The notes below the pieces were generated by a model. That model saw only the letters and a list, made by a program, of their open reading frames with translations. It made no database searches and was not told the DNA's origin. Source: Nitrososphaeraceae archaeon (GTDB lineage: Archaea > Thermoproteota > Nitrososphaeria > Nitrososphaerales > Nitrososphaeraceae). From it: DNA of 64,000 nt. Position numbers and translations under genes: made by a program. The stretch is from positions 514,626 through 578,625 of the forward strand of contig JALDRC010000001.1 of the NCBI GenBank assembly GCA_031316115.1, written 5' to 3'. Below, piece after piece: positions 6,855 through 26,573 of this stretch (position 1 is the first letter of the stretch; each line of letters starts with the position of its first letter).

Positions 6855-8012
6855 TTACTCAACTTTTTTAAAGAGATGAACTGCAGCGCTGGCACCAGTT
6901 GCACCAAAATTATGAGTCAAAGCTATTTTCGCATCGTTAATGGTTCTTTCTCCTGCCTTTCCAGTTAGTTGATCATATACTTCAGCTACCTGTCCTATTC
7001 CTGTCGCACCTATAGGATGACCCTTGGACTTTAGCCCACCTGATGGATTAATTGGAATTCTCCCTTTTCTGGAAGTAGCACCTTCTCGGATCTCTTTCGC
7101 TGCTTTGCCTTTTGGGAAAAAACCTAGATCTTCTACATCTATGATTTCCGCAATAGTAAAACAGTCATGAACTTCTGCAAAATCTACATCCTCAGGAGTA
7201 ATACCTGCCATTTTGTACGCCTGCTTTGCTGCTATAACCGTACTTGGGATAGTAGAAATATCCTCTCTTCCTTGTACGGAAGCAGGGGAGCCTCCACGTC
7301 CTGAGCCTATAACCTCAATGTATGGTCTGTTACTTTTTTTTGCAAATTCTTCATTACAAAGTATAACTGCAGAAGCACCATCTGAAAATGGACAACAATC
7401 CAACAGTTTCAGTGGTGAAGCTACAACAGGGGAATTTATTACGTCTTGGATTGTAATCCTTTTTCGCATGTGAGCTTTGGGATTTAATAATCCATTATCA
7501 TGATTTTTGACTGCCACATATGCTAAATCTTCTTCATCTGCTTTATATTTAGTCATATAATATCGAGCAATAGATGCAAATAAACCAGGAAAGGATGCAC
7601 CATTTCCTCCTTCATAGAAGAAATCAGAGCAATAAGAAAATAGCGTAGTACTTTGTGCAGTACCAGTATGAGTCACTTTCTCGACACCTACTGCAAGTAC
7701 GCAATCATAGAATCCTGCGGCTACATTAGCATATGCTTCTCTAAACATCACAGAACCTGAACCACATGCGGATTCAATAGTTAAGCCTGGTACATGAGAT
7801 ATACCAAGATTACTCATAATTACAGGTGCCATATGCACTTGTTTATCAGCTATACCAAATACATTCGAAATATACCCTGCGCCTATATCTTTTGGAGATA
7901 TACCAGCTGATTTTATTGCTTCGACCGATGCAGTCAATGCGATTTCTATTATATCCTCTTTTAACTTACCGTAATTTGTACTGCCTGCACCTAAAACACA
8001 GACCTTATTCAC
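6855..8012 (-). CDS. Thiolase-domain protein (acetyl-CoA acetyltransferase family)
   Basis: ESACGSGSVMFREAY, EVHDCFTIAEI, NPSGGLKSKGHPIGATGIGQ motifs. Confidence 0.9.
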   Translation of the reverse strand: MNKVCVLGAGSTNYGKLKEDIIEIALTASVEAIKSAGISPKDIGAGYISNVFGIADKQVHMAPVIMSNLGISHVPGLTIESACGSGSVMFREAYANVAAGFYDCVLAVGVEKVTHTGTAQSTTLFSYCSDFFYEGGNGASFPGLFASIARYYMTKYKADEEDLAYVAVKNHDNGLLNPKAHMRKRITIQDVINSPVVASPLKLLDCCPFSDGASAVILCNEEFAKKSNRPYIEVIGSGRGGSPASVQGREDISTIPSTVIAAKQAYKMAGITPEDVDFAEVHDCFTIAEIIDVEDLGFFPKGKAAKEIREGATSRKGRIPINPSGGLKSKGHPIGATGIGQVAEVYDQLTGKAGERTINDAKIALTHNFGATGASAAVHLFKKVE

Positions 8013-8164
8013 TTTAATAAATTATTTTTTGTATTATAAAAATGTTCGACAGCAATGAGCTTGAGGAGTAATATTCGTTACTGATTTTAATGATGAATAA
8101 TAGAATTAAAGATACTTTTGAGATTCATCTTTAGGTTTTTATATCTGAATCTAAATTGAATATC

Positions 8165-8266
8165 ATGACAAAGGAAAATAATAAAACCCATGCATATTCT
8201 GAAAAGCGTCATAATAGTAAAAAATTCGCCAAAATAGAAAGACGTATTAGAAAAAAACCAAGATAA
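8165..8266 (+). CDS. Small very basic ORF (33 aa) MTKENNKTHAYSEKRHNSKKFAKIERRIRKKPR
   Basis: Not in supplied ORF list; ATG..TAA, strongly basic composition; divergent from the thiolase gene. Confidence 0.35.
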   Translation: MTKENNKTHAYSEKRHNSKKFAKIERRIRKKPR

Positions 8267-8321
8267 TTATATCGTTGGTAATTATTTACTCAAGCTTTAT
8301 AACTAATTTTTAACAAATATA

Positions 8322-8441
8322 ATGGTGATGGGGACGGATCTAAATAAAAAGAAAAAGGCAACTAAAAAAGGTATTTTACTGACTATTATTATTGTAGCTG
8401 CAGTTGTCTTAAGTAGCTTCTTAATATATTTCATACCGTAA
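8322..8441 (+). CDS. Small single-pass membrane peptide (39 aa) MVMGTDLNKKKKATKKGILLTIIIVAAVVLSSFLIYFIP
   Basis: Not in supplied ORF list; positively charged N-terminus followed by one about 20-residue TM helix. Confidence 0.5.
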   Translation: MVMGTDLNKKKKATKKGILLTIIIVAAVVLSSFLIYFIP

Positions 8442-11400
8442 AAACTGGGGATTTTTCAATTAAATTGACTATAATACTAGTACGAGATCAATTTAAAAAA
8501 TCAGATTTTATTCTTATAATAATTGAGAATTTCGGCCATTGTCCGCAACCCATGCAAAAATGAAAAAATAGTTGTTTCCTGATTGATTTTTCAAGAACAT
8601 ATTTACTACAATCTATTTTCTTAATTACTTATCGATTTCCTTGAACTCTCTGAACATGCCAAATATGTTCAGTATATATGTGGCCTTTTAGGGAAACTGG
8701 CTAATGATAGCAATAAAATAACTTTGTTCCATCGCATACCATAATCGGCAATCAAATCATTCTTAACATAATCATATATGAAAAATGCTATTTAATGATT
8801 TTATAGAACGTTTTTTAAATTCTAAACTGATTTGTATCCTGGAAATAAGTTCAATAGATCTAATCTTGGCTCTAAGGTTTTGTTGTATAACTCTTACCGT
8901 TGTTCTTCTATTACCTATAACTATTGCTGAAAATTAGATTTTATCGTATTAAAAGAGTCTATTAAGAATAGGGATAAAGTAGAAACATCATACAACAGTC
9001 TTATATTCGATACTCAATTTTAAAAGATTTATTTTATATGTTCTAAAAATATTTTCTTAGCTTGACAGAGCCTGCTATAATAACATAAGGACGTCTAAAA
9101 TTAATTACGTGATAGTAATTTGAACTTTTAGAAGAATGTTGGGGTTTGATATCCGATTAACAAGATTAATTTACCACTCAAAAATAAATGGTTATTTTTT
9201 TATTTCATTAATATACCACTTGTTAGGATTCCAAATGTCACAGCCCAGATGCCGGCACATAATCCCATTCCAGCCCAGCATTCTGTAAACCCACTCCATC
9301 TCTTAATATTTCTATCATCATTGTTAGAACCAGTGCAACTTCCTGTGTTCTCGTTATTAGTGTAAAATAGAGAGCCAATTTTAATTATATTTCACAATCA
9401 TAGTCTTTAAGTTTGGTGAATCTGAAAACCATTTAGATTTTATCATAATTGGTTTGACCATCACATAAAAAATAAAAGTAACATAGAGATTGTATTTACC
9501 TTATCATATTTTCTATTTTTTATTATTTGTATTTGTATCGATTATGTTTGTTTGTGACCTTGTTAATTATTTATCTTAATCTCCCCGGAGTAGTATGCAA
9601 GCATAACATATTTTGTAATTATAGAGGCTTAATCTTCAAGATAGAATAACGACCTCGATATGAATATAATTCTTTACATTTTTGCTTCATCACTTGCTAT
9701 TGTGGTCACAGAATAATCAGTAACTCTAATTTTAAACATGGTAATCAACTAAAATTCTCCGTCATAGAAATCATCTAATCAGATGAATTCTAGTTGCACG
9801 TGTCATATTGGTTATACTTTAGGGGAAACATGTTTTATATTATATTCTGGTAACGTTTTTACCCAAGTTCTCTTGTTACTTATTTATCACTTGCTATTTT
9901 AGTTCAATTCTAAACTTTAACAAATGTTCAAATTGCCAAAGACAATACTTTAAAATTCATTTCAGGAATTGATATCACTATTTTGATAATCTATACATTA
10001 ACACCTGTAAAATTCAAACACTGAAATGCCCTTGTCCCCTGGACTAAAAAAACTAATGTCACAAGAGAAGCAAACAGTGATGGGAATGTTTTTAATATCT
10101 CTATTCTTACAACTAGCATTTCTAATTCCAACGATAAGGATGATAACAAAGATGAGGATCAGATAATCTACTTGCAAAGGGTGTAAAATATTAGCAATAT
10201 AATAATTTCTGAAATAATCTATAAAATGATAGAGAATCAGGGAACAAGAAAAAATAGAATATCAAGAGAATTTAATTTAGTCACATATACAGAATGGACA
10301 TTTGAAGATTGAATGACCAATATTATTTTAGCGAATTAAATAATAATACAAAACACAATCTACTGCCTATTGAATTAGAATATTATGATCTAGATCATTT
10401 ACTCTTGAGTAGGTCTATTTGCCTGTGAAGCTTCGCCCTGCTGTTTTAAATACTAATAACATGGTTACGTTGTTTTGGACAAATGGTATAGTTTTCATAT
10501 GTGAGAAATGTCACCAATTGTGACTTGAAGAACATATTGTAAATGTTGGAAAACGCAAAATTAAGCCATAGAAGCGTTAGAATTACGGGTAGGAAAAAAT
10601 AATACTAACTGACCATTTCATGGGAATATTTCCATTGCCAAATTCCAAAGAATTATTGATTTTGTATATACTATACTAAAATGATCTTTGCTCAAATTGA
10701 GAGAAAATTGGAAATGTAGACTAGCACGTTAACAAAAAAATAAAAGAACAAATAATTACAACATAATTAAGATGGGTCAAGATTATAGGATTAGTATGGT
10801 AGAGTTGTTTTCAAAGGGATATGAATAGTATACTGTAGATAAGTTTTGGAACGGTTTAAAAGTATTTATTATTTATGGGATAGAAAATACATATAAAAAA
10901 TATATAGACTAGAAAATATCTTGAATTAGAAAATAGCAAATAAGCCATTTTTCACTCTAATGACATTCAAGACACACAAACTCTAGGAGAAATGATGGAG
11001 AATATTCTTGGTTAAATATTTTTATCTACTAAAGTTAGATGTATTGACTAGTTCGAGTATTATATGATTCATAACGTATCATACACAAGTCTGAACAAAA
11101 AGTAGAAGATTTATTCACTACCAATTAGGAATGAGATGATTTAACAATCAAGTTCCAACATTTTGACAATCTACCTAAAAAAGGATAACGATGGTTTAAG
11201 ATTCAGCAAGCATAATAAATAAACTCAAATAAACTGACAAAAAACAGCAACACCATATACAACAATGGTCTTTACTCAGCCCATCCCCGAACATCGTAAG
11301 AACGGTTGTGCCATATTCCGTTCTGGGCATGGGCGGATTATTTAAAATAACTTTATCCATAGAGTAACATTACTTGTTGATATAATCATAACTGCGTCCT

Positions 11401-12818
11401 ACCTAGAAATTATAAAACTGGTGAAGAATATACCGTTTGGTTGACCACGTAAATATAATAGGAAGTATTAAAGTAAAAAGTTATGATAATCTTAGGATCG
11501 ATAGCTTTGGATATCAGTTCTTTATTTGATATATGGTTCAGTTGGCCAACATAACAATGACTTTTTCACCAATACTTAATAAAGATCTAAAATCGAGTTA
11601 TCCACTTAAACTGCTTAAGATAATGGAACTACTCTTAAACCTGGGGCTATTTTATGTTGTTTTAATGAAAATTTATTAGAATTCAATAAATCGAGAGTTG
11701 AAAAATATCCTTCCAATCATATAGACTCATTTTGCTCTTATGATAATTCCAAATTCAGATTTTATGCTTAATCAGATTTTTATAGGAAAACCCAAAAACT
11801 TGAGGTTATAGATGTACTGAGAAGATAATTAATAAAAATTATTCACTAAATGATTTTTATATTAGCTTAATGAATTAGAAATAATAAATGAATACATAGC
11901 ACAGGATCAAGAATCGTGTCTCTCCAAGAAAATAAAAATAGATTAAGTTTCACTTAAAATATAAATAAAAATACAGGTATCAAAATAAAGATATTATATC
12001 GAAAGAGTATAACATAAAACATCTCAAATATCTTGAATTTATTTTCATTAAAAGATATTGATAAATCGATTGAAGTATGTAAATTGTATTCCGACCTAAA
12101 AGGTAAGTCATAGAGGTTGGATCTCATAGCTCTTAACTTTAGTTTATCATCATTTAGTAATCTATATGTTGTAGATCTTAATAAAAAGAAAGTAATTGGA
12201 AAGATCAAAATGATAAAATAAAAAAAGTCTAGTTCCTGAAAGAATAAAGTTACAAATTGAAATCAACCCTGGATCATGGTTTGTAAATGTTTCCATTCAT
12301 TGAGTGATAAAGGAATTTAGGAGAAAGAATTGAGTAGTTCTGGATATGGGGAAAGAAAACAATTACTCAGAGCACAATCTTCTCATTCCGCTCAAATTTT
12401 GCAAAAAACATAAAAGCATTTAAGAACATCTAAACTCTTGTCAAAGAAGAAATCAGCAATTGATCCTTAATATATCATACTTATTCTCTCTGAAAATATT
12501 CTGGTTGAAAGATTTTTGGCTGAACAAAGAAACTAGTTCATAAAAATCACATACACAGATTATTTCAATTCTCATAAAAAATCAAATTCAAACCTCGTAT
12601 ATATAATATATTAGAATTTAGCTATTTGAATAATTGTCTAAGCTATAATAAAAATAATTAGTTTTTCTTGTAGATCTGATAGAAACTCTATTTGAATTCA
12701 ATTCCAAAAAGAAACATATCTTCTTTTATTCTCATATCTAAAGATAATTAGTGTTATAGATATACTTCGTAAACTGAAACTAGTAAAGTAGAGATAAACA
12801 GAATATATTGGATAAAAA

Positions 12819-12837
12819 AAAGAGATTTTATCTCTTT
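12819..12837. terminator. Terminator-like hairpin with T-tracts on both sides
   Basis: AAAGAGAT-ttt-ATCTCTTT followed by cttttttttat on + strand and by a T-run on - strand. Confidence 0.35.
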
Positions 12838-13268
12838 CTTTTTTTATTTTTTTATATAAAATAGAAGGTTATTAGGTATATCTTTTGTTGTTTGAATTAA
12901 GTATCTTTATATAAGCAAATAACAATTTTTTTATTTATATCTATTAAAATTTATATTTGTCCCTTTGTTAAGAACATCGAATTTATAGATGAATGGTGAA
13001 AGAAAGTAAAAATGTTTTGGATACTAATAAATAAAAAATAAGCATTTTGCTATTTTATTATAAAAAGTTATATATTTTGTATCTAAATGACTTTTATTAT
13101 TTGTACTTACAAATAAATCATCAAGTTCAATATTATTTATTAATATATACCTTCCCCATGATATAGAAATTCATATGAATAATTAGACCGAGCTCATATA
13201 TCGTAAATCCCACGTTTGGTATTTTGACATGATGCACAACGTACTGTGCTTGAAAAGAGGAGAGAGAA

Positions 13269-16200
13269 TTGAATAAAGAACATAAATTATTGACAGCAAT
13301 ATTATTTTCTTTTATAATAGCATTGTCAGGTATTCCATTCACATCAATTGCTCGAGCATCTTTAGATGCCTATTCCGACTATAATGAAGATTATTATGGT
13401 GGTATCATAAAGAAATATGAACTACCAAAAGGGTTTAATCAACCAACTGAAGACCATCCTTGGCCTGATGAGATTATTCCAGACAAATTCCCTTTACGAG
13501 ATGACTGCCTAAATGGGAAAAATATTCCTTATAAATATTTAACAAAATTTAGAATTCATGCAATTGAAGTTGATATTGCTTACAATAGAAACGGTTTTCA
13601 TGATCCCGATGGCAGAATGTATGTATTAGAAGAAGACAAAGACAAAGTCTTAGAAAAAGTAGCGAATTCGAATGCTACTAACGGAGAGACAGTTACTGAA
13701 GTTCAGCCTCTTGCCATTCGTACCAATATTGGAAAGTGTGTAGAAATTGAATTTACAAATGATTTAAGAGAAGAGTATGCTTCTATACATCCATCTGGGA
13801 TAGGTTTGGATCCTATCAAATCTGATGGTAGCTTTGTAGGATTCAACAAGGATTCTACTGCTAAACCAGGTGAGACTATAAAGTATAGATGGTTCCCAGA
13901 TGTTGTAGGCGCCAACTTTTTTTCAGATGCTGCAAGACAGATAGTGGAAGTTGATACCTCTGTCTTGGGAGACTGGGCTGCTAATGCTATAAAATCATTA
14001 CGTCAACATGGTTTATTTGGTGTCCTTATTGTAGAACAAGAAGATGCTTATTGGACAGATCCTTTTACCGGTAAGTATCTTAGAAGTGGTGTCAAGGCTG
14101 ATATTCATTATAATGATGGTATAAAACAAGACACAAGAGAATTTGTTGCATTTTATCATGATGAGGCAGGAGTGGTTGATGCATTTGGAAATCCTACAAT
14201 AAGTCCTAATGGTGAGATTGAAGCAATGTATACTATGAATTATAGAGGAGATACTATTGACTCCCGAACTAATCCCAAGTTTCCAAATCATTGCAATCCT
14301 GGAGTCGCTCCCGAAGTTTGTACTGATCCTGACTTCTTTTACAATTCTTGGCCATTTGGAGATCCTGGTAATGGGGATCTAGTATTTCCAGCATATTCTG
14401 GAGATCCTGTCAGATTGATTACGGTAGGTGCTCAAACAGAGGAAAACCATGTTCATCATCTTCATGAACATAGATGGAAGGCAGATCCATCATTTGGAGG
14501 CGGCTCACCTACGATAGATGTTCAAACAGTTGGTGTGGGTAACGAATTTCTCCAACCAGTAAATTTGGCTTTTGGAGATCATACTATTAATCCTGACACC
14601 ACTTTTGCACAGGCTCTTATAGCGGGTGCTGCAGGATATCAGACCGGTGCAAAGGATGATGAACACTTTACAGGTGATGTTATTTTCCACTGCCACCTAT
14701 TTCCTCATTATGGTAATGGTATGTGGTCACTTATGCGTGTTCTAGATAGAATAACAAGTCCTTTTGCAGAGATTGTTGAAGGTGGAGCATCTAATGGTGG
14801 AAATGCTCTACAACCTGTAGAAGGTGCGCCAATTTTGTTACCTCTACCTGACTCTACCGATGTAACACCTGTAGCAGATGATTTCCTACCAGGATTTCCG
14901 TACTTTATTGAATCCAACGAAGACGGAAGTCCCAAGAGACCTCCAGATGAACAAAATCCATGGGGAAGAGATTACACTGATCTGGAATGGAGATCAACAA
15001 ACTATTACCAGAGAGCAATAGAACATGGAGATCCCCATCCAGATCCTAAAGTGTTGTCCAAACCAGGAGCACCGTACGATGATAATTGTATCCCTGGAGC
15101 ACCAGAACGTCATTATGACATAGCAGCAATTACAGCTAACGTTAAATACAATGAATTCGGTCATCATGATCCAGACGGCAGGATATTTGTGCTAGTAGAT
15201 GAAATAGACAAAACCCGAGAAGCTATTCTGAATGGTGACCCAGTTGAACCTCTGATTATACGCGCAGCACTTGGGGAATGTGTTACTACTACGTTTATAA
15301 ACATGTTGGACCCTGAACCTGGATTTAACCAATCCACAACACTATCAAATCATATACACTTTGTAGGTTTTGATGTGCTAGGATCTGATGGTGTAGATGT
15401 TGGTTATGATTATTTCCAGGCAAGTAGAGCTCCAGATACTGCAAATGAGCAATTTCCAGATAGGATAAGCTACAGATACATGGCTGATGAAGAGGGGACG
15501 ATATTCTTCCATGATCATATCACAGGCATAGAAAAAGGGATGCATGGTACAGGAGCCATGTTAGTGGTAGAGCCAAAGAACTCGGTATGGCTTGATTCAG
15601 AAACAGGAGAAGAGTTAGAATGTCCAGAGAATTGTCCTACATCTTCTGAGATAATGGTCGTTCCAAATAAATACGGGAACTTTGAACCACATCGTGAATT
15701 TGTAATTCTCTATCAGGACTTCAATGAATTGTATGACGAAAACGGTGATCCTATAATGATGATGTCTCCAGACCTTGACCATATCAATGCAGACAATCCA
15801 CCATCTGATCCCAATGCTGCAGATAGGAAAAATGTTGGAGCTCCTCCTCCGGGCAGTTTCCATGATCATGGTGTAATGTCTATCAATTACAGAAATGAGC
15901 CCCTATGGGAGAGGATTCAAGATGGAAAACCTAATGGCGATGAACCTGCATTCATATTCAGTTCCGATGTACACGGAGACCCATCTACGCATATCTTCAA
16001 GGCATACGCTAACGATCCAATAAGGATAAGACTTCTTCAAACAGGGCATGAAGAGATGCACAATTTTGTGTTAAATGGATTGCATCCCACAGGTTTTGAC
16101 GGTTTTGTACCACCGTTTCTTGGTCAACAGGCACAAACAATTGGAGTAGCAGAACAGTTCACATTTGATTTAACAACACCAATCTCGCTTACTGAGAGAA

Positions 16201-18587
16201 ATGATTACATGTATAGTTCATTTGCAACAAATGATATCTTTGCAGGTATGTGGGGCTTGATAAGGGTATGGTGTAATGAGAATAGCTTGTACAATGATCA
16301 AGATTTCCAAAATGTAAACTTAGCTCCATTACCAGGAATAAAACCAGTAAAATGCATTGACGTTGCCAACAACAACATGAATATTGGCGAAAATGTTGCA
16401 CAGTCTTCTACTGATCAAGATACATTTGATATATTATCAATGTTAGATACCTCACCAAATGTAAGTACCGGAGATTCCAATGCAAATACAATTGCCAATG
16501 AAATGGAAGAACCTACAATATCTGCACAACAAGTACTCCCAGATGAAGATACATCTATACCTCCTGATACCGGATTAGATGATATTCCGTTAGAATCTAT
16601 AGATCCAGATACAGAAAGAGCGGTATTGCTTTCTATGGATGATCTTGCAAACTTGAGACAGATGCAAGCTAGTCAAGCGGACTTTACACCACCATCCAGC
16701 GCAGGCTCTACAGCATTTACAGAAAAAATAAAACCTGCGACAGGATTAACTCCAATAAGTTTGCAAGACGTTAGAAACGCGGGCTTATTGCCGCCAGTTC
16801 CAAATTCTTGTTCACAAGATGCAGAAGAAAAGATATTCGATGTCGTTGCAATAAAGAAGGATATCATAACAAACAAATATCAGGATACAATACCTGAGGG
16901 AATCCTATTTGTTCTAAAACAAGACCTTGCTAAGATACAGTCTGGAGAAAAACCACTTGAACCTTTGGTAATAAGAGCAAATGTTGGTGATTGTGTAGTT
17001 GTCAACCTAGAAAACAAGCTCCCTAAAACAGAAATACAACCTCATGAGCATCCTCTGCAACCTGGGGAATGTAATGAGCATGTTATCTTTGCATGTCTTG
17101 ATCCAAATGAATGGCACACATCAAATAGAGTTTCACTTCATGCTGATAACGTATTTTATGATGTAGGAAGGTTTGATGGTACCAATATTGGATTCAATCC
17201 TATTGACCAAACAGTAGGACCAGATGAGACTATAACATACAAGTGGCAGGCAGTACACACTGGAATTAATGTACTAACAGACATGGGAGACCTCAGAGGA
17301 CACAGACACCATGGAGCATATGGTATGCTGATAATAGAACCAGAAGGTGCAAAATACTATGATATAAACACCTATCAGCCAATACAATCAGGAGCAGCTG
17401 CGGATATAGTAGTACCATATGGAGAAAACTTTAGAGAATTTGGAGTGGCAGAGGGAGACTCTCATTATATAGTAACTACTGAAGATCCTGAACTATGTAT
17501 ATTACCAGTAGGTGAAGAGGACCCACCTAACACACCATGTAATCAATCTCCTATAAATGACCCAGAAGATCAGGGATTTCCTGTAGTAAATTACCGATCT
17601 GCTCCGTTCATACACAGACTTATTGAAGCACAAGAACAACTACCGTTTGGCTTTCCACCAGGACCACTCGAATTTTCAAAGATAGTATCTCAATTACAGA
17701 GTTCTTTGGTCCACGGAGATCCAGATACTCCAATTCTCAAATCTCCAGTAGGAAAACCAACAGTTATACGACTAGCTGATGTAGGTGACAGTCCAAGAGG
17801 AAAGGTCTATCACCTTGCCGGACATTTAATGGAAAGACCAGCTCCAATAACAATTGCTGAATCGGATATTCCACCTCACACAGTCTTCAAACCATATCTG
17901 GAAAGAGGTACAACTGATCAGCTTTCTGCATCCAGGTCATACTCGTTAGAGCTGGTTGGAGGTGCAGGAGGACTTCAGGATAAAATCGGTGATTATCTAT
18001 ACCAAGATCAGAAACTTGCTCGTTATGTGGAAGGAGGTTTATGGGGAATTTTACGTGTATTCCCAGAGGACTTTGAACCAATATACGAGCTAAATCATCT
18101 GATAAACAATATAGAATATTCAAAACTATCGCCAGATGTCAAAGAAAAGATAATAACAAATCTACAAAACATCCTATCACTATTAGAGGACACCGATAAA
18201 GATAACAATAAAATAATCTGTGAAGAAATAATACCGGATCTACTAAGATTCCTTGATGAATTAGGAGGAAATTACAAGAGTGGAGGCGATAACTACAACA
18301 TGAATTATGGCTATCCTGGATACAAGACAGAAAAACAATATGATGACCAAAAAGCAGGATACATAACACAATATGCTACATATGCAGAAGATGATGATTA
18401 CTCAAATGACAAAGATTACAATAAAGAGAAAAATTATGAGGAACATAATAGTAACTACAATTCAGATGACCATGATCCAAAACAACAATACGACAACAAT
18501 GAAAAGCATTATGGATACGGCGGAGACATTAGCATCTACAAGATACAAGAAATCATAAGAACATTGGCATATGTTATATGCCCATAA
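13269..18587 (+). CDS. Giant (1772 aa) secreted multicopper oxidase with three repeated cupredoxin blocks
   Basis: TTG start after gaggagagag; signal peptide LLTAILFSFIIALSGIPFTSIARA; HVHHLHEHRW, HCHLFPHYGNGMW, HIHFVGF, FFHDH motifs; repeated HDPDGR(M/I)(Y/F)VL and EPL(V/I)IRA..G.C segments. Confidence 0.9.
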   Translation: MNKEHKLLTAILFSFIIALSGIPFTSIARASLDAYSDYNEDYYGGIIKKYELPKGFNQPTEDHPWPDEIIPDKFPLRDDCLNGKNIPYKYLTKFRIHAIEVDIAYNRNGFHDPDGRMYVLEEDKDKVLEKVANSNATNGETVTEVQPLAIRTNIGKCVEIEFTNDLREEYASIHPSGIGLDPIKSDGSFVGFNKDSTAKPGETIKYRWFPDVVGANFFSDAARQIVEVDTSVLGDWAANAIKSLRQHGLFGVLIVEQEDAYWTDPFTGKYLRSGVKADIHYNDGIKQDTREFVAFYHDEAGVVDAFGNPTISPNGEIEAMYTMNYRGDTIDSRTNPKFPNHCNPGVAPEVCTDPDFFYNSWPFGDPGNGDLVFPAYSGDPVRLITVGAQTEENHVHHLHEHRWKADPSFGGGSPTIDVQTVGVGNEFLQPVNLAFGDHTINPDTTFAQALIAGAAGYQTGAKDDEHFTGDVIFHCHLFPHYGNGMWSLMRVLDRITSPFAEIVEGGASNGGNALQPVEGAPILLPLPDSTDVTPVADDFLPGFPYFIESNEDGSPKRPPDEQNPWGRDYTDLEWRSTNYYQRAIEHGDPHPDPKVLSKPGAPYDDNCIPGAPERHYDIAAITANVKYNEFGHHDPDGRIFVLVDEIDKTREAILNGDPVEPLIIRAALGECVTTTFINMLDPEPGFNQSTTLSNHIHFVGFDVLGSDGVDVGYDYFQASRAPDTANEQFPDRISYRYMADEEGTIFFHDHITGIEKGMHGTGAMLVVEPKNSVWLDSETGEELECPENCPTSSEIMVVPNKYGNFEPHREFVILYQDFNELYDENGDPIMMMSPDLDHINADNPPSDPNAADRKNVGAPPPGSFHDHGVMSINYRNEPLWERIQDGKPNGDEPAFIFSSDVHGDPSTHIFKAYANDPIRIRLLQTGHEEMHNFVLNGLHPTGFDGFVPPFLGQQAQTIGVAEQFTFDLTTPISLTERNDYMYSSFATNDIFAGMWGLIRVWCNENSLYNDQDFQNVNLAPLPGIKPVKCIDVANNNMNIGENVAQSSTDQDTFDILSMLDTSPNVSTGDSNANTIANEMEEPTISAQQVLPDEDTSIPPDTGLDDIPLESIDPDTERAVLLSMDDLANLRQMQASQADFTPPSSAGSTAFTEKIKPATGLTPISLQDVRNAGLLPPVPNSCSQDAEEKIFDVVAIKKDIITNKYQDTIPEGILFVLKQDLAKIQSGEKPLEPLVIRANVGDCVVVNLENKLPKTEIQPHEHPLQPGECNEHVIFACLDPNEWHTSNRVSLHADNVFYDVGRFDGTNIGFNPIDQTVGPDETITYKWQAVHTGINVLTDMGDLRGHRHHGAYGMLIIEPEGAKYYDINTYQPIQSGAAADIVVPYGENFREFGVAEGDSHYIVTTEDPELCILPVGEEDPPNTPCNQSPINDPEDQGFPVVNYRSAPFIHRLIEAQEQLPFGFPPGPLEFSKIVSQLQSSLVHGDPDTPILKSPVGKPTVIRLADVGDSPRGKVYHLAGHLMERPAPITIAESDIPPHTVFKPYLERGTTDQLSASRSYSLELVGGAGGLQDKIGDYLYQDQKLARYVEGGLWGILRVFPEDFEPIYELNHLINNIEYSKLSPDVKEKIITNLQNILSLLEDTDKDNNKIICEEIIPDLLRFLDELGGNYKSGGDNYNMNYGYPGYKTEKQYDDQKAGYITQYATYAEDDDYSNDKDYNKEKNYEEHNSNYNSDDHDPKQQYDNNEKHYGYGGDISIYKIQEIIRTLAYVICP

Positions 18588-18619
18588 ATCTATTTTTTTG
18601 TTTTTATTTTTATTTTTTA
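18588..18619 (+). terminator. T-rich archaeal-type terminator after the multicopper oxidase
   Basis: tctatttttttgtttttatttttatttttt immediately after the stop codon. Confidence 0.5.
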
Positions 18620-20348
18620 AAAAAATCATTGATAAGAGTATCTCTAATCTCATAAATTTGTCTAATTAATATAAATATATTAGAACAGAAAGAGCTTTAC
18701 CCGTTCGAATTTGATTTATTTTCCTGTTTTTTAAATCATATTTTTATCCGTTCTATTTCTTAGATAAATAAATAAATTTATCCTTAACTTACTTTCATTA
18801 CTTTTTCTATCTATTTGGGAAGGATCCCATAATTAGTATGACGAGGTTTTTAGATCTATATCCAAATCTACTAAACTATTCCTTAACAAGACCTGGATCA
18901 AATTGTTCTCTAATAGGAGATGACAGGGTTTGAGGGAATACAGATGTTTCCCATTTATTCATCGATGAGACTTACTACTTGGAACATGCTGAGCAGAACG
19001 AATTAGAATATGTTAAATCCTATGATCAGAAAAGTAGTGGAAATATTATTCTTGCCAGTATAGCAAATAGGGCTGCTTATTTCTTTGCTCGAATAGAGAA
19101 AAATGAAATATTCAAAATTTCTTTTATAAAATATTTTTTGCTTATTCTCACGTAATTGGAAAAATATTGATATCGATTTTATGTAAAAAAAGTGATGAAA
19201 CACTATCAGAACGTGAAGATAACCTCAAATACTTGAAAATTGGTAATGTATTTTCTCTAGTAATTATTGATAAAGCACTTGAATTAGGTATATAGTACGA
19301 AGATTTGTCAATTAAGTTATTTCCTCTGTACTTTTTGGGGTATACTATTGTTTTTATCATCCGTTAACGCCATTTATATTACATAACTATTATCCACAAC
19401 TAAAATTATTCAGAATTATCAATGGAGAGGATAATGATAAGAAACTCATAGATTATCTTTGATGCACTGTTCGATTATACAAAATCCCAAACATCAGTTG
19501 GCTGGGAAATTGAGCAAATCTTGGAGCAGTCAATGAGTGTAAAGTTGAATTTAGATGGAATCTGGATTTCGACAAAGCGCAGGTTATCAATATCTAAGAC
19601 GATTAAAGAATTGGAGTTAACTTCGGTAAAGAACATAAATATACGCTACAATACATGTACCACCTCCTGAGTAAGGAAAAATTGGCCATTGATCCCTAAT
19701 GTACATAACTTAATCGATCATGGAATCCGGTCTAGCTGAAGAATTCAATCTTGAGAAGGTAGTAACTGTCTACAATGACCATCTTGACAGCCTGATAAGT
19801 GTATGCAAGGGAGTAAGATTTGTAGAATGGTGATATTTCAAACTAACTAATAATAATCATAATAATTATAATTTTTAAGATGATATCCCAAAAGACGAGA
19901 ATATATTACTCCAATAATTAGAAATAATCATTATTCTAGTTGAGCAATAAGAAGAAAAAAGATATTTTTTCTCCTGCGAATCTCTTGGATTTTCCCATTA
20001 AATACTAAAGAAATGCATTTTTCAATAACTTGAATACATAAATGTATAGATTCCTTCAGACACTGTGAGTTGGTTACAATGTTATGAATTTGGAACAATA
20101 TATCTTGTAGAACATGGAAAATAATAATCCGAAATTAGTTGATTCAGAGTACTATCAAAATTTATCATCATAGTAAACCTATGAAGTTATAACACTTTAA
20201 CTAACTCAGGAATAGAAAGAATAATAGAATAAATATGACTCTAAAAAATGGGAGAGAATAATTAGACTAAATTTCACGGATCGAGTTGACAGTGGATCTT
20301 AATTAGTTATCATAATAACAGTAACGATTTACGGTAACATGGCAAAAC

Positions 20349-20401
20349 CGGGCAGAGTAGGAAATGAATCGTCGGCAGACTTGTCACACCTACTCCACCC
20401 G
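20349..20401 (+). ncRNA. Candidate structured RNA/hairpin (CGGG-CA-GAGTAGG ... CCTACTC-CA-CCCG)
   Basis: 11 Watson-Crick pairs with symmetric CA/CA internal loop, GC-richer than surrounding AT-rich DNA. Confidence 0.3.
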
Positions 20402-20827
20402 ATACGAAGGCTATCTGGTTTGAGGTTTGCGAGTAAAACTAATAATCCCATTGTAGATATACATTTTTCACAATCATCCTATTTATATCTAATTCCATTC
20501 TTGGAATTAGTATTTTATTTATTTCGCCATTGATTCAGAATAACAGCAAAAACGGAGAGTTAGTAGAAGATTTGGAGATTTCAATTTCCCCGTATCACTC
20601 TCTGTGCTATGATGTCTTTACTGTATAGATTATAGGAATCATAATATTTACCAATTGAGAATATAAGTTATTAAAAAAAAGAAAGCAACATAGTAGAATG
20701 AGGATTAATATGATTACTATTACTGTATTATCCTTTTATGAGATTTGACTGATTTTTATCTTCATATGCTGTGTTGCACAACTCCTTAACGCTAACACAT
20801 TTAGCTAACCTATCATAGTCATATTAT

Positions 20828-21697
20828 GTGAGAAATTGGAAGAATTACAATGAATCTCTGGTAAAGAGAGGAGAGATATTACTTGATTTTGATGTTATTG
20901 ATAAATGGGATTACGAATTAGAAGAGATTAACAAAGGTAAAGAAGGTAGAAAGTTTGTATATCCAGATTCCTTTATCAAATTACTTGGGTACATGAGAGC
21001 ATATTTTCATTTACCATACAGACAGACTGAAGGTGTGGTTAGGGAACATGCTTCAGATACATTACCATCAATCCCTCATTATAGTAACATTAGTAGAAGA
21101 ATAAACAGATTGGATATCAAAATAAACGATAATGACAAATCTAGTTTACATGATGATACTTTTGTAATTGCAATTGATGCTACAGGTGTTAAAGTTACAA
21201 ATAGAGGGGAATGGATTAGACATAAGTGGAATGTCAAGAGAGGTTATCTCAAGATACATGTAGCAGTTGACATAAAAAGAAAGAGAATACTGTCATTAGA
21301 AGTAACCAGTGAAGAAGTACATGATGGAAAAGTACTGCCTGAACTGATAGAAGATATAACAATAAAGCAGAATAAGGAAATAGATACAACTATCGTAGAT
21401 GGTGCCTATGACAATAACAATAATTTTCAGATACTGTCATTTAGAGGAATTAAACCTGCAATCAAGGTAAGAAAGAATTCAAGATGTAGAAAGACCAATC
21501 ATTATCTTAGAAACAAGACTGTAAAGATACAGAGAACTGATCTTGCTAAATGGAAAGATAGCGTAAGCTATGGACAGAGATGGATTGTAGAATCAGTATT
21601 CTCATGTATCAAGAGAATGTTTGGAGAATATGTTACTGCTATCAGATTTGAGAATATGATAAAAAGAATAGATTATGTTGAAAGCATCATTGTATAA
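20828..21697 (+). mobile_element. IS5-family-like DDE transposase (289 aa, apparently intact ORF, GTG start)
   Basis: IAIDATGVK, TIVDGAYDNNNNF and RWIVESVFSCIKRMFGEY (DDE) motifs. Confidence 0.85.
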
Positions 21698-21731
21698 CTT
21701 GTTTCAGAGTATAACTGTAAGATAATTGTTA

Positions 21732-22472
21732 GTTATAACGGCTCTGTTAACCTACAGAAACAGCTATGTTAAGAACATTCTATTTATCATATGAATCAAA
21801 TCAAATTTGAAAGAAATCTAGAACATCTAACTATATATTGTAATGTATTCTGTTTATCTAGGTACTTTCTTGGTTTGAGCTTCAGAATACATCTAAAGCA
21901 TTGACTATATTTAGAATGATAAAAGAAGTTATCATTTCTGTTTGGAATTGGATACAAAGATTTGGTTCCTACACAGATCTCATACAAAAGAAAAAGAGTA
22001 ACTGCTTGCTATAGATGAAACAGTTATTCAGATTGGTAACCAGCATTTTTGGTTATGGATTTGTATTGAACCAATTAACTCTTCAGTGCTTGGAATCATA
22101 TTTCTGAAGAGAGAAACATGTTGTGGCAGAGAATTTTATCAGATCTCTTGTATCCAGATATGGAAAACATGTACTGTCTATACAGATGGTGGTGATCGGT
22201 AATAACTGCTACGTAATGCAATTGGATTGAAACACTATCTACATTCACCAATTCAAAAAAGTTTGATGGAAAGAGTAAACCAGTATTTGAAGGATAAATC
22301 GAATCATTTTGATGATTACTATCCATGTAGACAACAGGAATGCAATCTATTTCATGTACATAACTGGATACAATTCTTTATCTCTATGTACAATGATACC
22401 ATAGCAAATAATAATCATTTTGAGTTAGAAAAGGAGGTGAATATTATTTTATCTTAACAGAGCCGTTATAAC
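21732..22472 (+). mobile_element. 741-bp insertion sequence with perfect 19-bp terminal inverted repeats and decayed DDE transposase
   Basis: GTTATAACGGCTCTGTTAA at 21732-21750 and exact reverse complement TTAACAGAGCCGTTATAAC at 22454-22472; internal frames LLAIDETVIQIGNQHFWLWICIEP and SLMERVNQYLKDKSNHFDDYYPC. Confidence 0.88.
21990..22457 (+). pseudogene. Frameshifted DDE transposase of the 741-bp IS (approximate limits)
   Basis: Transposase-like peptides in different + frames interrupted by stops; C-terminal piece is ORF 22227-22457. Confidence 0.75.
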
Positions 22473-22980
22473 ATAATAAATTGATTAGCGAAATGAATTA
22501 CGCAACAAAGCATCTTCATATACAACAACTATGGTATTGATCCGTTTATTTTATAATTAAATAAAAATGATTCGCCTTATTTTTATTTACGCCAATCTAT
22601 AAGTTTTGTTTCTACAGTCAAGATAAGCATAATATGCATCATTTACTGCTTTAGTTATGTCTTAGCATTATCCATAGTATGGTGTTTTAATTTCTTTAAC
22701 AATTCATAACTGATATTGTCTTCAAACTGAAAAAGGATATTTTATAAACAGAGGTAATTTAAAATGATGCGACGAATACAATAATTATGTAAAGAAATTA
22801 GATAGATTGGATTATCCGAAAGGAAATAACTATTATTATCCGAGTTTGGAAAGGTATCTTTCTCCTTCTCATTACATGTTGTGTGATATATGTTCTTCAT
22901 AAGGCGCAACAAGAGTTAATGAATAGAAGCAAAGACGTACTAAAAAGATCACATTTAGAAACATAAAATTAATAAATAAA

Positions 22981-23250
22981 TTATTTTAATGATTCAAGTC
23001 TTGTTTTAGTTTCTTCATATTGTTTAGCCACCCTAGGTTTCTTATTTTCTAATTCTTTTAGGTATTTTTTTGCTGTATTAACGGTTCTACCTGATATTTC
23101 TTTGATTCTTTTATCGTTGGTTCTATCATAGGTTTCCTGTGATTCATCTATAACAGTTTTTATGGTATCTATATTTTCCAAAAATGATTTATACAAATTT
23201 TCATTTAACTCGAGTTTTTTATCATAAGTGGAATCTTTATCTTGTATCAT
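22981..23250 (-). CDS. Coiled-coil ORF of unknown function (89 aa) or fragment of a decayed gene
   Basis: Heptad-rich K/E/N/L sequence; same strand as and downstream of the integrase remnant. Confidence 0.35.
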   Translation of the reverse strand: MIQDKDSTYDKKLELNENLYKSFLENIDTIKTVIDESQETYDRTNDKRIKEISGRTVNTAKKYLKELENKKPRVAKQYEETKTRLESLK

Positions 23251-23639
23251 ACAATGGATATCTGTACCATCTTTTGTTAAGTGTGTTTCGTTCTCTTGTT
23301 TAGCTGTTATCAGCCTAGATTTTTATTTTGTTTTAACAACTCATTTTTTAGCTGTTCTTATAATTTCTCTTCCTATATTTTTCCTTAATCCATTCACGTT
23401 CCTGTGCTAGTGATCCTTTCTGATTCAAAGACTGGCTATTTCTTTAGGTTTTCTATGTCCTTCTTTCATTTGATTGATTTATTGCTCTAGGTTATCCGAT
23501 GATAGTTCTTGAGTAGGTTTATCCAGACTTCCTATCAAGGTATTCCTTCCCATTGTAATCATCTACTAACTGATCATGATATTTTTTATAATCCTCTTCT
23601 GATCTAAAGTATTTTCTGTTTATAGTTTGTCTTTCAAGA

Positions 23640-24975
23640 AATTTATCATATACCTCAGACATTTTATCAGTTAAAAGTTGATCTGTTCCTTCATTTGTGC
23701 AAAATTGTTATCTTTTTGTTGTTGTCTTTCTAGAGTCTCATTATAGGAATTATAAGACAGAACCATTTTGTAATTCATAACTTTGAATCTGTAGGCATAT
23801 TCGCTTCGCAATGCTGACAGTATATTGATTGTAGAATACTAGATTTTGTATATTTATTATTTTTGTGGATAATACCTTTTGCCTCAAAAAGTGAATTTGG
23901 ATATTCATTTCCAAAAAAATGGATATATACTTATTGCATTTTGGATTTCATTGTCCAACCAGCATAATTTCGTAATACATCTTTCTTTAGAACCTGACTT
24001 TTTTTTCAGTAAGAGATGAATGTGTCTAAAAATGTGAAGATTCCAAGGTTTGGTTAGCATATTTTTTCTAAATGATTTTTCTTGCTAGGTAACTACAATA
24101 GGTTTATTATCTTCATCTTTTTGTTGTCTGATTTTTTGGTCTTTTTTATTAATAAATTTGGAAAAAATACTCTTTTGTAATAATCCTGACAATGATCAAG
24201 TCCATCATAGGGTTAATTTTGAACCAAACGCATTTTTTGATAATAATACAAAATGCCAAGAATCTGGATTTTGTCCTTATGGATTAGCATTTTGAATCCA
24301 GTCTTTTACATAAGGTAGACTTCCAATAATAGGTAAATTCCTAGAACTTGTTTTACCCCCTTTTATCTCGATTGTGCATATTGTTTTCCATATCCAGTTA
24401 CTCAATATGATATCTTTTTTTTAGGTTCAACAATTCACGAGTTCTTGCTGAAGTATCCATAACCATAGCATGATAACACCTATCACTTTTTGATGGACAG
24501 TATTTCAAAAATATAGAAGGTTCTCTAATATCACAGATATCTGAAGGATCATATCTTGCTATTTCCTTTCTATTTATTCTCTTGATCCCTTTAATGCAAT
24601 TCCGAACGAATCTTTCTTTCAGATCTGGTTCATTAGGATTAAAGAACTATTTGAAGAATGAATAAAAAATTAATTGTCAGAGATTATAGGATCCTATCCA
24701 TTTCTGCGTGGGATCTCCTGATATAGGTTTTCGCAAGATATTAAGATATGAAATAATACCATCTTTTTTCATTTTTTGATATGATTTAGTAGAATGAAAA
24801 TGGTTTGATAACTAGTTTAGAACTTTTATCTTGCCATCTTTAGATTCTTTGATATTTTATAACATTTGATCATTTATGATATAATCACAAATTATTCTGT
24901 CATTTTCAGGGTTTTCTAAAGCAAGTTTATTTAATGGAGTTTTGATATAAGGTCTGTGTAACACCCTCAAAGAGT
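23640..24975 (-). pseudogene. Decayed tyrosine recombinase/integrase of thaumarchaeal mobile-element type (approximate limits)
   Basis: Translated pieces GIISYLNILRKPISGDPTQKWIGSYN, KGIKRINRKEIARYDPSDICDIREPSIFLKYCPSKSDRCYHAMVMDTSAR(T)RELLNLK, SSRNLPIIGSLPYVKDWI, interrupted by many stops/frameshifts. Confidence 0.8.
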
Positions 24976-25095
24976 CTGTTCTTTGCGCTCAGGTTAAGTT
25001 ATCGCTTTGATTTTGTTTTCCAGTTTATCATATTACAATTATTCTTAAAACTCCAATCAATATTATTAATCTAACGTATGAATCCCCGATATTGA

Positions 25096-25179
25096 CGCCG
25101 GGAGAGGGATTTGAACCCTCGGGACCATACGGTCACAGGCTTTCCAGGCTTGCGCCCTCCCAGGCTAGGCGACCCCGGC
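25096..25179 (-). tRNA. tRNA-Ser(GGA)
   Basis: GCCGGGG/TCCCGGC acceptor, GAGGGTTCAAATCCCTC T-arm, long variable arm, CTGGAAA anticodon loop; one apparent A-C mismatch in the anticodon stem. Confidence 0.93.
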
Positions 25180-25347
25180 ACTTGAATAGTTTCTTAGATT
25201 AAATCTGAGTAATAATTATCGAAAATATATTCTATTTGATGATTGTAGTAGTTAGTTCATAATTAGTTTGTGAATTAGAAAATGATGTTTGTAATATTAA
25301 GACAAGAGACAAAATAAAAATAGGGCTAATATCGAAATAAAGGGATA

Positions 25348-25577: not shown

Positions 25578-26573
25578 TCATTTCCATCCTTTTGGATAAG
25601 TATTAGCTTTCATTATTATCCTCTTCATTATGAATGCGATTCCGGTTTTACTCAAAACTATTTGTTGTGTAGACATAATGGCTTCTGCAAGACCTACTAA
25701 TTCTCCTTTCAGAGTATACACCCCTACTATGGTACCATTTTGAATTGTGTTTGAAATTTGGGATATTCCAGGTATCGCAAGTTGTGCACCATGGCAAAGA
25801 GCATCAACAGCAGTATCTCTAATAATTACAGATGGAATATCAGATAGACAGTCTTCAATTGGCTTTATCATTGTCCTTATCTTTCCTTCCTCATTTTTTT
25901 CTTTATAAAGTGAAAAAGCAGAATGCAAATCATGAAGTTTAACCAATCCGTCTTTTTCATAAAAATTATTTACTCTTGTGCGTCTTAACTCTATCATTGT
26001 TGCACCGTTACCTAATACTTCCCCAATATCATAAATCAACTTCCTGATGTATGTGCCTGATTGACATAAAATTCTCAATAAGAAAAGCTTATCAGAAAAT
26101 TCTAGCAATTCTATTTCATGAATTTTCCTTATTCTTGTCATCCTTTTAACAGATGAACGTTGTGGTGGCTTTTGATATATTTCATCACAAAATTCATCGA
26201 GTATAAGCTCCATTTTTGAAGTGGGTACCGTCGAATGTATTCTTGCAACTGAATAATATTCCTTAGGTCCCATCAATAATACTGATAATGCCTTTGTGCC
26301 TTCTCCCAAACCCATTGGCAACAATCCAGTTGCACCTGGATCCAATGTACCGCTATGTCCAGTTTTTTTTATAGATAACATCTTTTTAACCCATGATGCT
26401 ACCTCATGACTTGTAGGTCCTGAAGGTTTATCAAGTAAAATAATTCCATATTCAAGTAACTCATCGATAGGCCTTTCAGATACTATATGTCCATATTTAT
26501 GGTCAGTAAAATCATCCCGTAATGTAATTAGACCTTTAAATTGTCTAAAGTTTGCTAAATTTTTAGAAGGCAT
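25578..26573 (-). CDS. cbf5: tRNA/rRNA pseudouridine synthase Cbf5 (TruB family with PUA)
   Basis: GIILLDKPSGPTSHEV, KTGHSGTLDPGATGLLP, C-terminal PUA. Confidence 0.95.
   Translation of the reverse strand: MPSKNLANFRQFKGLITLRDDFTDHKYGHIVSERPIDELLEYGIILLDKPSGPTSHEVASWVKKMLSIKKTGHSGTLDPGATGLLPMGLGEGTKALSVLLMGPKEYYSVARIHSTVPTSKMELILDEFCDEIYQKPPQRSSVKRMTRIRKIHEIELLEFSDKLFLLRILCQSGTYIRKLIYDIGEVLGNGATMIELRRTRVNNFYEKDGLVKLHDLHSAFSLYKEKNEEGKIRTMIKPIEDCLSDIPSVIIRDTAVDALCHGAQLAIPGISQISNTIQNGTIVGVYTLKGELVGLAEAIMSTQQIVLSKTGIAFIMKRIIMKANTYPKGWK

Follow-up and report, generated by a model that had tools for sequence, protein, structure and literature searches.

A six-cupredoxin MnxG-like multicopper oxidase on a genomic island of an ammonia-oxidising archaeon

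The stretch of DNA analysed here (64,000 nucleotides from a Nitrososphaeraceae archaeon, hereafter the window) encodes a 1772-aa multicopper oxidase (MCO) that almost certainly belongs to the MnxG family and, judging from its sequence, is very probably an active enzyme. On balance, we favour the view that this is a secreted MnxG-family MCO with six cupredoxin domains, which was acquired on a genomic island by an ammonia-oxidising archaeon (AOA) and underwent duplication either there or in a near ancestor. The host genome carries archaeal AmoA (E 2.3e-118). Both the family and its motif order were already known, and what is new here is the location of an MnxG in an ammonia-oxidising archaeon. 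Our literature search, which had partial coverage, found neither an MnxG in such an organism nor a report of Mn oxidation with an MCO in Nitrososphaeraceae.

Domain architecture and family placement

The features of the gene are as follows (window coordinates).

13269..18587, plus strand: mnxG-like gene with a TTG start, six-cupredoxin MCO of 1772 aa (open frame; phmmer match to 9bxa; Pfam Cu-oxidase_3 and Cu-oxidase_2)
13269..13361, plus strand: probable Sec signal peptide, residues 1-31, LNKEHKLLTAILFSFIIALSGIPFTSIARA followed by S (sequence reading, cleavage site by eye; the N-terminus of the paralogue is similar)
13539..14736, plus strand: block 1 (domains 1-2), residues about 91-489 (alignment to 9bxa; AlphaFold model)
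15129..16277, plus strand: block 2 (domains 3-4), residues about 621-1003 (alignment to 9bxa; AlphaFold model)
16278..16883, plus strand: low-complexity linker joining block 2 to block 3, about 200 aa (the frame breaks of the paralogue fall at the same place)
16884..18089, plus strand: block 3 (domains 5-6), residues 1206-1607, without copper ligands (phmmer E 2e-82 and Foldseek E 2.3e-28 to 9bxa)
18090..18584, plus strand: C-terminal extension of 165 aa (AlphaFold model)

The open frame is longer than the gene by just five codons. The putative signal peptide, identified by eye as Sec-type, suggests that the protein is probably exported.

When the protein was compared with all PDB sequences using phmmer, the only real match was chain A of 9bxa, the MnxG of Bacillus sp. 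PL-12. This match (E 4.2e-141) covers residues 91-1001 and 1170-1607 and hence all three blocks, and block 3 alone also finds 9bxa (E 2e-82). Pfam returned only the generic Cu-oxidase_3 and Cu-oxidase_2 matches. The NCBIfam model NF041487 (an MnxG equivalog of 1894 positions, presumably built on Pseudomonas-type MnxG) matched with E 1e-67 and 228 bits against a cut-off of 3100 bits; so low a score relative to the cut-off fits a different branch of the MnxG family. No match to this model was seen in 14 control genomes.

Structure prediction, which the preliminary description of this DNA had proposed in order to see whether the His motifs converge, agreed as to the family. The AlphaFold2 model of residues 70-1010 (44 aligned rows; mean pLDDT 74.6, pTM 0.77) has 9bxa as its best PDB fold (Foldseek E 8.9e-69, TM-score by query 0.69), followed by factor V and ceruloplasmin with TM-scores of about 0.43; a two-domain laccase fold was also matched. 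For the model of residues 1197-1772 (pLDDT 70.1) 9bxa was again the top PDB match (Foldseek E 2.3e-28). The two models together support six cupredoxin domains in the MnxG fold, and with the alignment of all blocks to 9bxa they bear out the earlier proposal of three repeats and six such domains. The same match, together with the tree described below, upholds the likeness to MnxG-type enzymes that had been suggested.

The Bacillus sp. PL-12 and SG-1 MnxG (9bxa) shares with the window protein its six cupredoxin domains, motif order and all ligands, and is its best structural match, with 39% identity in the aligned core. Bacillus MnxG, however, has 1217-1227 aa, is located on spores and needs MnxE/MnxF, whereas the window protein combines its 1772 aa with a signal peptide, a long linker and a C-terminal extension, and lacks mnxE/mnxF. 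The haloarchaeal homologues (e.g. from Halohasta, Haladaptatus and Halegenticoccus) form a sister clade of similar size (about 1500-1720 aa) and likewise have a long linker, N- and C-terminal extensions and no mnxE/mnxF nearby, but they differ in their twin-arginine-type leader and C-terminal region and are only about 34-38% identical. The linker between blocks 2 and 3 measures about 200 aa here, compared with 46-68 aa in most Firmicutes members and about 108 aa in most haloarchaeal ones. Ceruloplasmin and hephaestin share the six cupredoxin domains, a single trinuclear cluster and the next-best fold, but are only about 12% identical. The large MnxG-type MCO of Pseudomonas putida, at about 1944 aa, is near the window protein in size (PMC3600357). 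The two-domain MCOs of AOA (N. viennensis type C 2dMCO) are also cupredoxin MCOs but belong to another family (PMC11561398).

The C-terminal extension is predicted by AlphaFold to form a helical bundle, followed by a disordered stretch rich in Tyr, Asn and Asp and a C-terminal helix ending in AYVICP. It is common to the window protein and its paralogue at 41% identity. A separate 169-aa protein of the host with an N-terminal hydrophobic segment (L131:1225-1734, G000:C12), for which similar proteins occur in genomes G001, G002 and G005, has in common with this extension a segment around DxDxDNxxICxxIIP, a weak match (E about 0.005). Judged by its sequence, the segment may be a surface domain specific to the lineage, with a loop resembling Ca-binding ones.

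Copper ligands and motif order

Each block carries an N-domain signature: HDPDGRMYVL at residues 111-120 (block 1), HDPDGRIFVL at 633-642 (block 2) and IPEGILFVL at 1208-1216 (block 3). A second signature, EPL(V/I)IRA, had been assigned to all three blocks. It stands in block 2 (EPLIIRAALGEC, residues 660-671) and block 3 (EPLVIRANVGDC, residues 1231-1242), but block 1 instead reads QPLAIRTNIGKC (residues 146-157). The motifs that carry the copper ligands are listed below.

14448..14465, plus strand: motif C, HVHHLH, residues 394-399 (H394 type 1; H397 type 2; H399 type 3); invariant in 44 homologues, assigned by MCO convention
14688..14723, plus strand: motif D, HCHLFPHYGNGM, residues 474-485 (H474 and H476 type 3; C475 and H480 type 1; M485 axial); invariant in 44 homologues
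15351..15359, plus strand: motif A, HIH, residues 695-697 (H695 type 2; H697 type 3); invariant in 44 homologues
15510..15518, plus strand: motif B, HDH, residues 748-750 (H748 and H750 type 3); invariant in 44 homologues

These motifs lie where they had been placed, as do the degenerate ends of block 2 (ATNDIFAGMWGLIRV, residues 986-1000) and block 3 (YVEGGLWGILRVF, residues 1586-1598). Block 1 thus holds HxxHxH and HCH-x3-H-x4-M and block 2 holds two HxH motifs, which amounts to a single set of copper ligands. The set is complete, with ten His, one Cys and the axial Met, and all twelve are invariant in 44/44 aligned MnxG-family cores from the host genome, haloarchaea, Bacilli and Clostridia, in line with the suggestion that blocks 1 and 2 share one copper set. 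In the 43 full-length rows, both host copies included, every ligand is kept, the sole exception being Rubrobacter, where Phe replaces the Met.

By MCO convention, H394, C475, H480 and M485 would form the type-1 site, and H397, H399, H474 and H476 together with H695, H697, H748 and H750 one trinuclear cluster. The implied meeting of the four ligand motifs in space is a prediction resting on homology and on the predicted fold that matches 9bxa. Foldseek labels 9bxa 'Mnx H340A complex', and its A340 aligns with the type-1 His, which is intact in the window protein as H480. Since A340 is an engineered change, the single ligand at which the two proteins seem to differ was altered in the solved one.

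The order C, D (domain 2) and then A, B (domain 3) had been described as a permutation peculiar to this protein. It is fixed in 44/44 homologues as well as in the solved Bacillus MnxG; 'permuted' is therefore true relative to laccases but ordinary for MnxG. An ordinary laccase, three-domain or duplicated, was rejected because of this reversed motif order and because the nearest solved relative is MnxG, with laccases far weaker. The cluster of ceruloplasmin lies between domains 1 and 6. Such a site between the first and last domains was also rejected here, as domains 1 and 6 are without HxH and HCH ligands, and the cluster is assigned between domains 2 and 3 instead. Where copper motifs were lost, invariant or near-invariant acidic and His residues are found (H174, D186 and D220; E928, H931 and D989). 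We regard them as a candidate Mn(II) or structural site, a lead rather than a result.

The genomic island

The gene lies on an inserted island between a thiolase gene and a tRNA-Ser.

8052..25092: inserted island, thiolase to tRNA-Ser (BLASTN against a sister genome, which has about 0.95 kb there)
6855..8012, minus strand: thiolase, left flank; neighbour of truB in sister genomes
20828..21697, plus strand: DDE transposase (PF01609/PF13737), inside the island
25094..25180, minus strand: tRNA-Ser(GGA), whose 3' end is the right edge of the island
25578..26573, minus strand: truB-like pseudouridine synthase, right flank (name from sequence reading)

BLASTN homology to sister genomes of the same genus stops at about 8051 and resumes from 25093, at the 3' end of the tRNA-Ser, and the thiolase-truB distance, about 1.4 kb in the same-genus genomes G001 and G005, is 17.6 kb here. 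The insert of about 16 kb contains mnxG, the DDE transposase and long stretches without convincing genes (window 8013-13268, 18588-20827 and 21698-25093), and an Rfam search within the island found nothing except the tRNA. Integrated elements typically border on the 3' end of a tRNA. No repeat of this 3' end was found at the left edge, allowing up to two mismatches, and no integrase was seen. ARAGORN reads the tRNA at the island edge as Ser(GGA) with 87 nt here and as Pro(TGG) with 97 nt in a sister (L117, G001:C179, 3298-3394), where the anticodon region contains additional bases, perhaps an intron.

Contamination or a chimeric contig was considered and rejected: the flanks are syntenic with sister AOA genomes, GC3 resembles that of the neighbours, and a second copy stands on another contig of 200 kb. 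The GC3 of the mnxG-like gene is 0.25, compared with 0.20-0.26 in neighbouring genes, and this host-like value indicates that the gene has long resided in the lineage. We also discounted its overall GC of 0.39, against about 0.31-0.36, as a sign of recent transfer, as the excess falls mainly at first codon positions and reflects protein composition.

Distribution and phylogeny

A first scan of genome contigs with a single sequence confirmed no relative, and a three-row profile run over GTDB genomes recovered at least 80 loci. Among the matches listed, haloarchaea were best, with about 37% identity, followed by Bacilli and Clostridia. Six-domain MnxG homologues have previously been reported from haloarchaea (PMC3600357). 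Among the haloarchaeal proteins recovered here, the C-terminal region carries GDxTGDGxxDVLIGVP-like motifs that resemble FG-GAP/integrin repeats (L007, L010, L011, L014 and L097).

Closer to the host, the gene was found in 1/6 genomes of the genus (the host itself), 1/301 of the order and 1/401 of those sampled from the class. Within the family it is present in 1/70 genomes, plus one relic in another genus. This relic consists of two collinear pieces of MnxG block 3 that are nearest to the host copies (L004:692-977, G020:C128), and the rest of its 1435-bp contig holds no MnxG. Since this one genome has two mnxG copies and hundreds of its relatives have none, gain is favoured over loss in the sisters.

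The tree places the window protein as sister to its paralogue (100/100), and this pair joins the haloarchaeal MnxG homologues (100/99). Phylogeny, which the preliminary description had named as a further check, thus groups the protein with MnxG homologues and not as an ordinary laccase duplication. One Bacillus sp. EB01 protein branches outside the ammonia-oxidiser pair and the haloarchaea, and the AU test rejects a tree with the pair outside haloarchaea and EB01 (p-AU 0.003). The final tree was built without the long-branched Actinobacterial and Microvirga rows and without any Pseudomonas sequence.

A second, split copy

The host carries a second, diverged mnxG copy (C17:121673-127256) on a 200-kb contig. 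It is read in two frames, a copper core of 1041 aa (L005:9719-12844) and domains 5-6 of 668 aa (L005:13254-15260; both G000:C17), which lie about 410 bp apart at the position of the linker with stops and frame changes between them. Between the window gene and this paralogue, dN is about 0.23-0.26 and dS about 1.7, which is near saturation, giving a ratio of about 0.13 in the copper core and block 3 alike. Such low dN with near-saturated dS in both halves indicates that purifying selection has maintained both. The frame breaks are either very recent or sequencing errors, or else the enzyme is made as two chains.

Partner genes and proposed function

MnxG of Bacillus requires MnxE and MnxF for activity (PMC5622069). 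MnxE- and MnxF-like genes adjoin mnxG in the Bacillus-type, Ammonifex and Thermaerobacter loci, and none were found at the haloarchaeal, clostridial, window or paralogue loci. Profiles of mnxE and mnxF run against the whole host genome gave best E-values of 0.09 and 0.2, both in frames with stops, and hence no credible match. As the two proteins are required in Bacillus and absent here, the archaeal branch must work otherwise.

By analogy with its relatives, we regard O2-dependent oxidation of Mn(II) by the secreted protein as its probable main role. This reading is the best supported because both experimentally studied MnxG lineages oxidise Mn(II), that of Bacillus (PMC5622069) and that of Pseudomonas, where it was shown genetically (PMC11930936). 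In the mechanism we propose, the type-1 copper in domain 2 (H394, C475, H480, M485) would take electrons singly from the substrate, most likely Mn(II), and pass them via the H474-C475-H476 bridge to the trinuclear type-2/type-3 cluster. The cluster, held between domain 2 (H397, H399, H474, H476) and domain 3 (H695, H697, H748, H750), would reduce O2 to water. Domains 1, 4, 5 and 6, without a copper set, would complete a ceruloplasmin-like ring. Mn(III) and Mn(III/IV) oxide would form outside the cell. Without MnxE/MnxF the enzyme may work alone or with lineage-specific partners, and its helical C-terminal extension may serve in anchoring or as a partner.

We know of no member of the archaeal MnxG clade with a tested substrate. 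Among anaerobic Clostridia, gut Lachnospiraceae included, oxidases of the MnxG type that retain the complete ligand set are common (L023-L036, L042-L046, L077 and others), and their genes stand without adjacent mnxE/mnxF. Given that the family occurs in gut anaerobes, some members may have a role other than O2-dependent Mn oxidation.

Several other functions were weighed. The protein could be a metallo-oxidase of MnxG fold that acts on Fe(II) or Cu(I) in metal detoxification or uptake, rather than in the formation of Mn oxide. Fe(II) oxidation is the activity of ceruloplasmin-type six-domain MCOs, ceruloplasmin is among the next-best folds of the window model, and metal genes stand beside some relatives (CopC on a Priestia plasmid; a CusA/CzcA efflux system in Microvirga). 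Against this, a Mn(II) oxidase is the closest relative of solved structure and no copper or iron genes lie beside the window gene, and we consider this role unlikely. MCOs are promiscuous enzymes and a two-domain laccase fold was among the Foldseek matches, but phylogeny and architecture are those of MnxG, which leaves only a slim chance for a laccase-like enzyme that oxidises phenolics or humic matter in soil.

Given that the host is an ammonia oxidiser, a part in nitrification was also considered, namely the oxidation of hydroxylamine or NO in the archaeal HURM module, a step for which MCOs have been proposed (PMC11561398). The MCOs proposed for AOA are two-domain enzymes (PMC11561398), however, and the homologues of the window protein occur in the non-nitrifying haloarchaea, Bacilli and Clostridia. 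Nearly all related genomes searched are without the gene (found in 1/401, 1/301 and 1/6 at class, order and genus level), so that it cannot be a core nitrification enzyme and a role in the pathway is highly improbable. Equally hard to credit is a non-functional passenger of the mobile island. The transposase and the long gene-free stretches, the paralogue broken in its linker and the relic in another genus of the family would fit such a passenger, but 1772 codons are open with all ligands kept, dN/dS between the copies is about 0.13 in both copper core and block 3, and the host-like GC3 (0.25 against 0.20-0.26) speaks for a long stay in the lineage.

Significance

Because AOA occur in ferromanganese deposits, they have been suggested to oxidise Mn. 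In a deep-sea study, moxA-type genes rather than mnxG were found in thaumarchaeal MAGs, with mnxG in bacterial MAGs only (PMC10367259). An amoA-bearing genome that encodes a full MnxG, none of its copper ligands missing, offers a concrete candidate for Mn oxidation by AOA. Our broader proposal is a tentative one, which we hold to be possible but rather doubtful: some AOA may have gained extracellular Mn(II) oxidation through a mobile island carrying an MnxE/MnxF-free MnxG, linking ammonia oxidation to Mn oxide, and the second copy may be a two-subunit MnxG with the copper core (domains 1-4) and domains 5-6 as separate chains. For the family as a whole, the roles of MnxE and MnxF could be tested cleanly in the archaeal branch that lacks them, and the split paralogue, in which the copper core and domains 5-6 are naturally separated, lends itself to dissecting the two.
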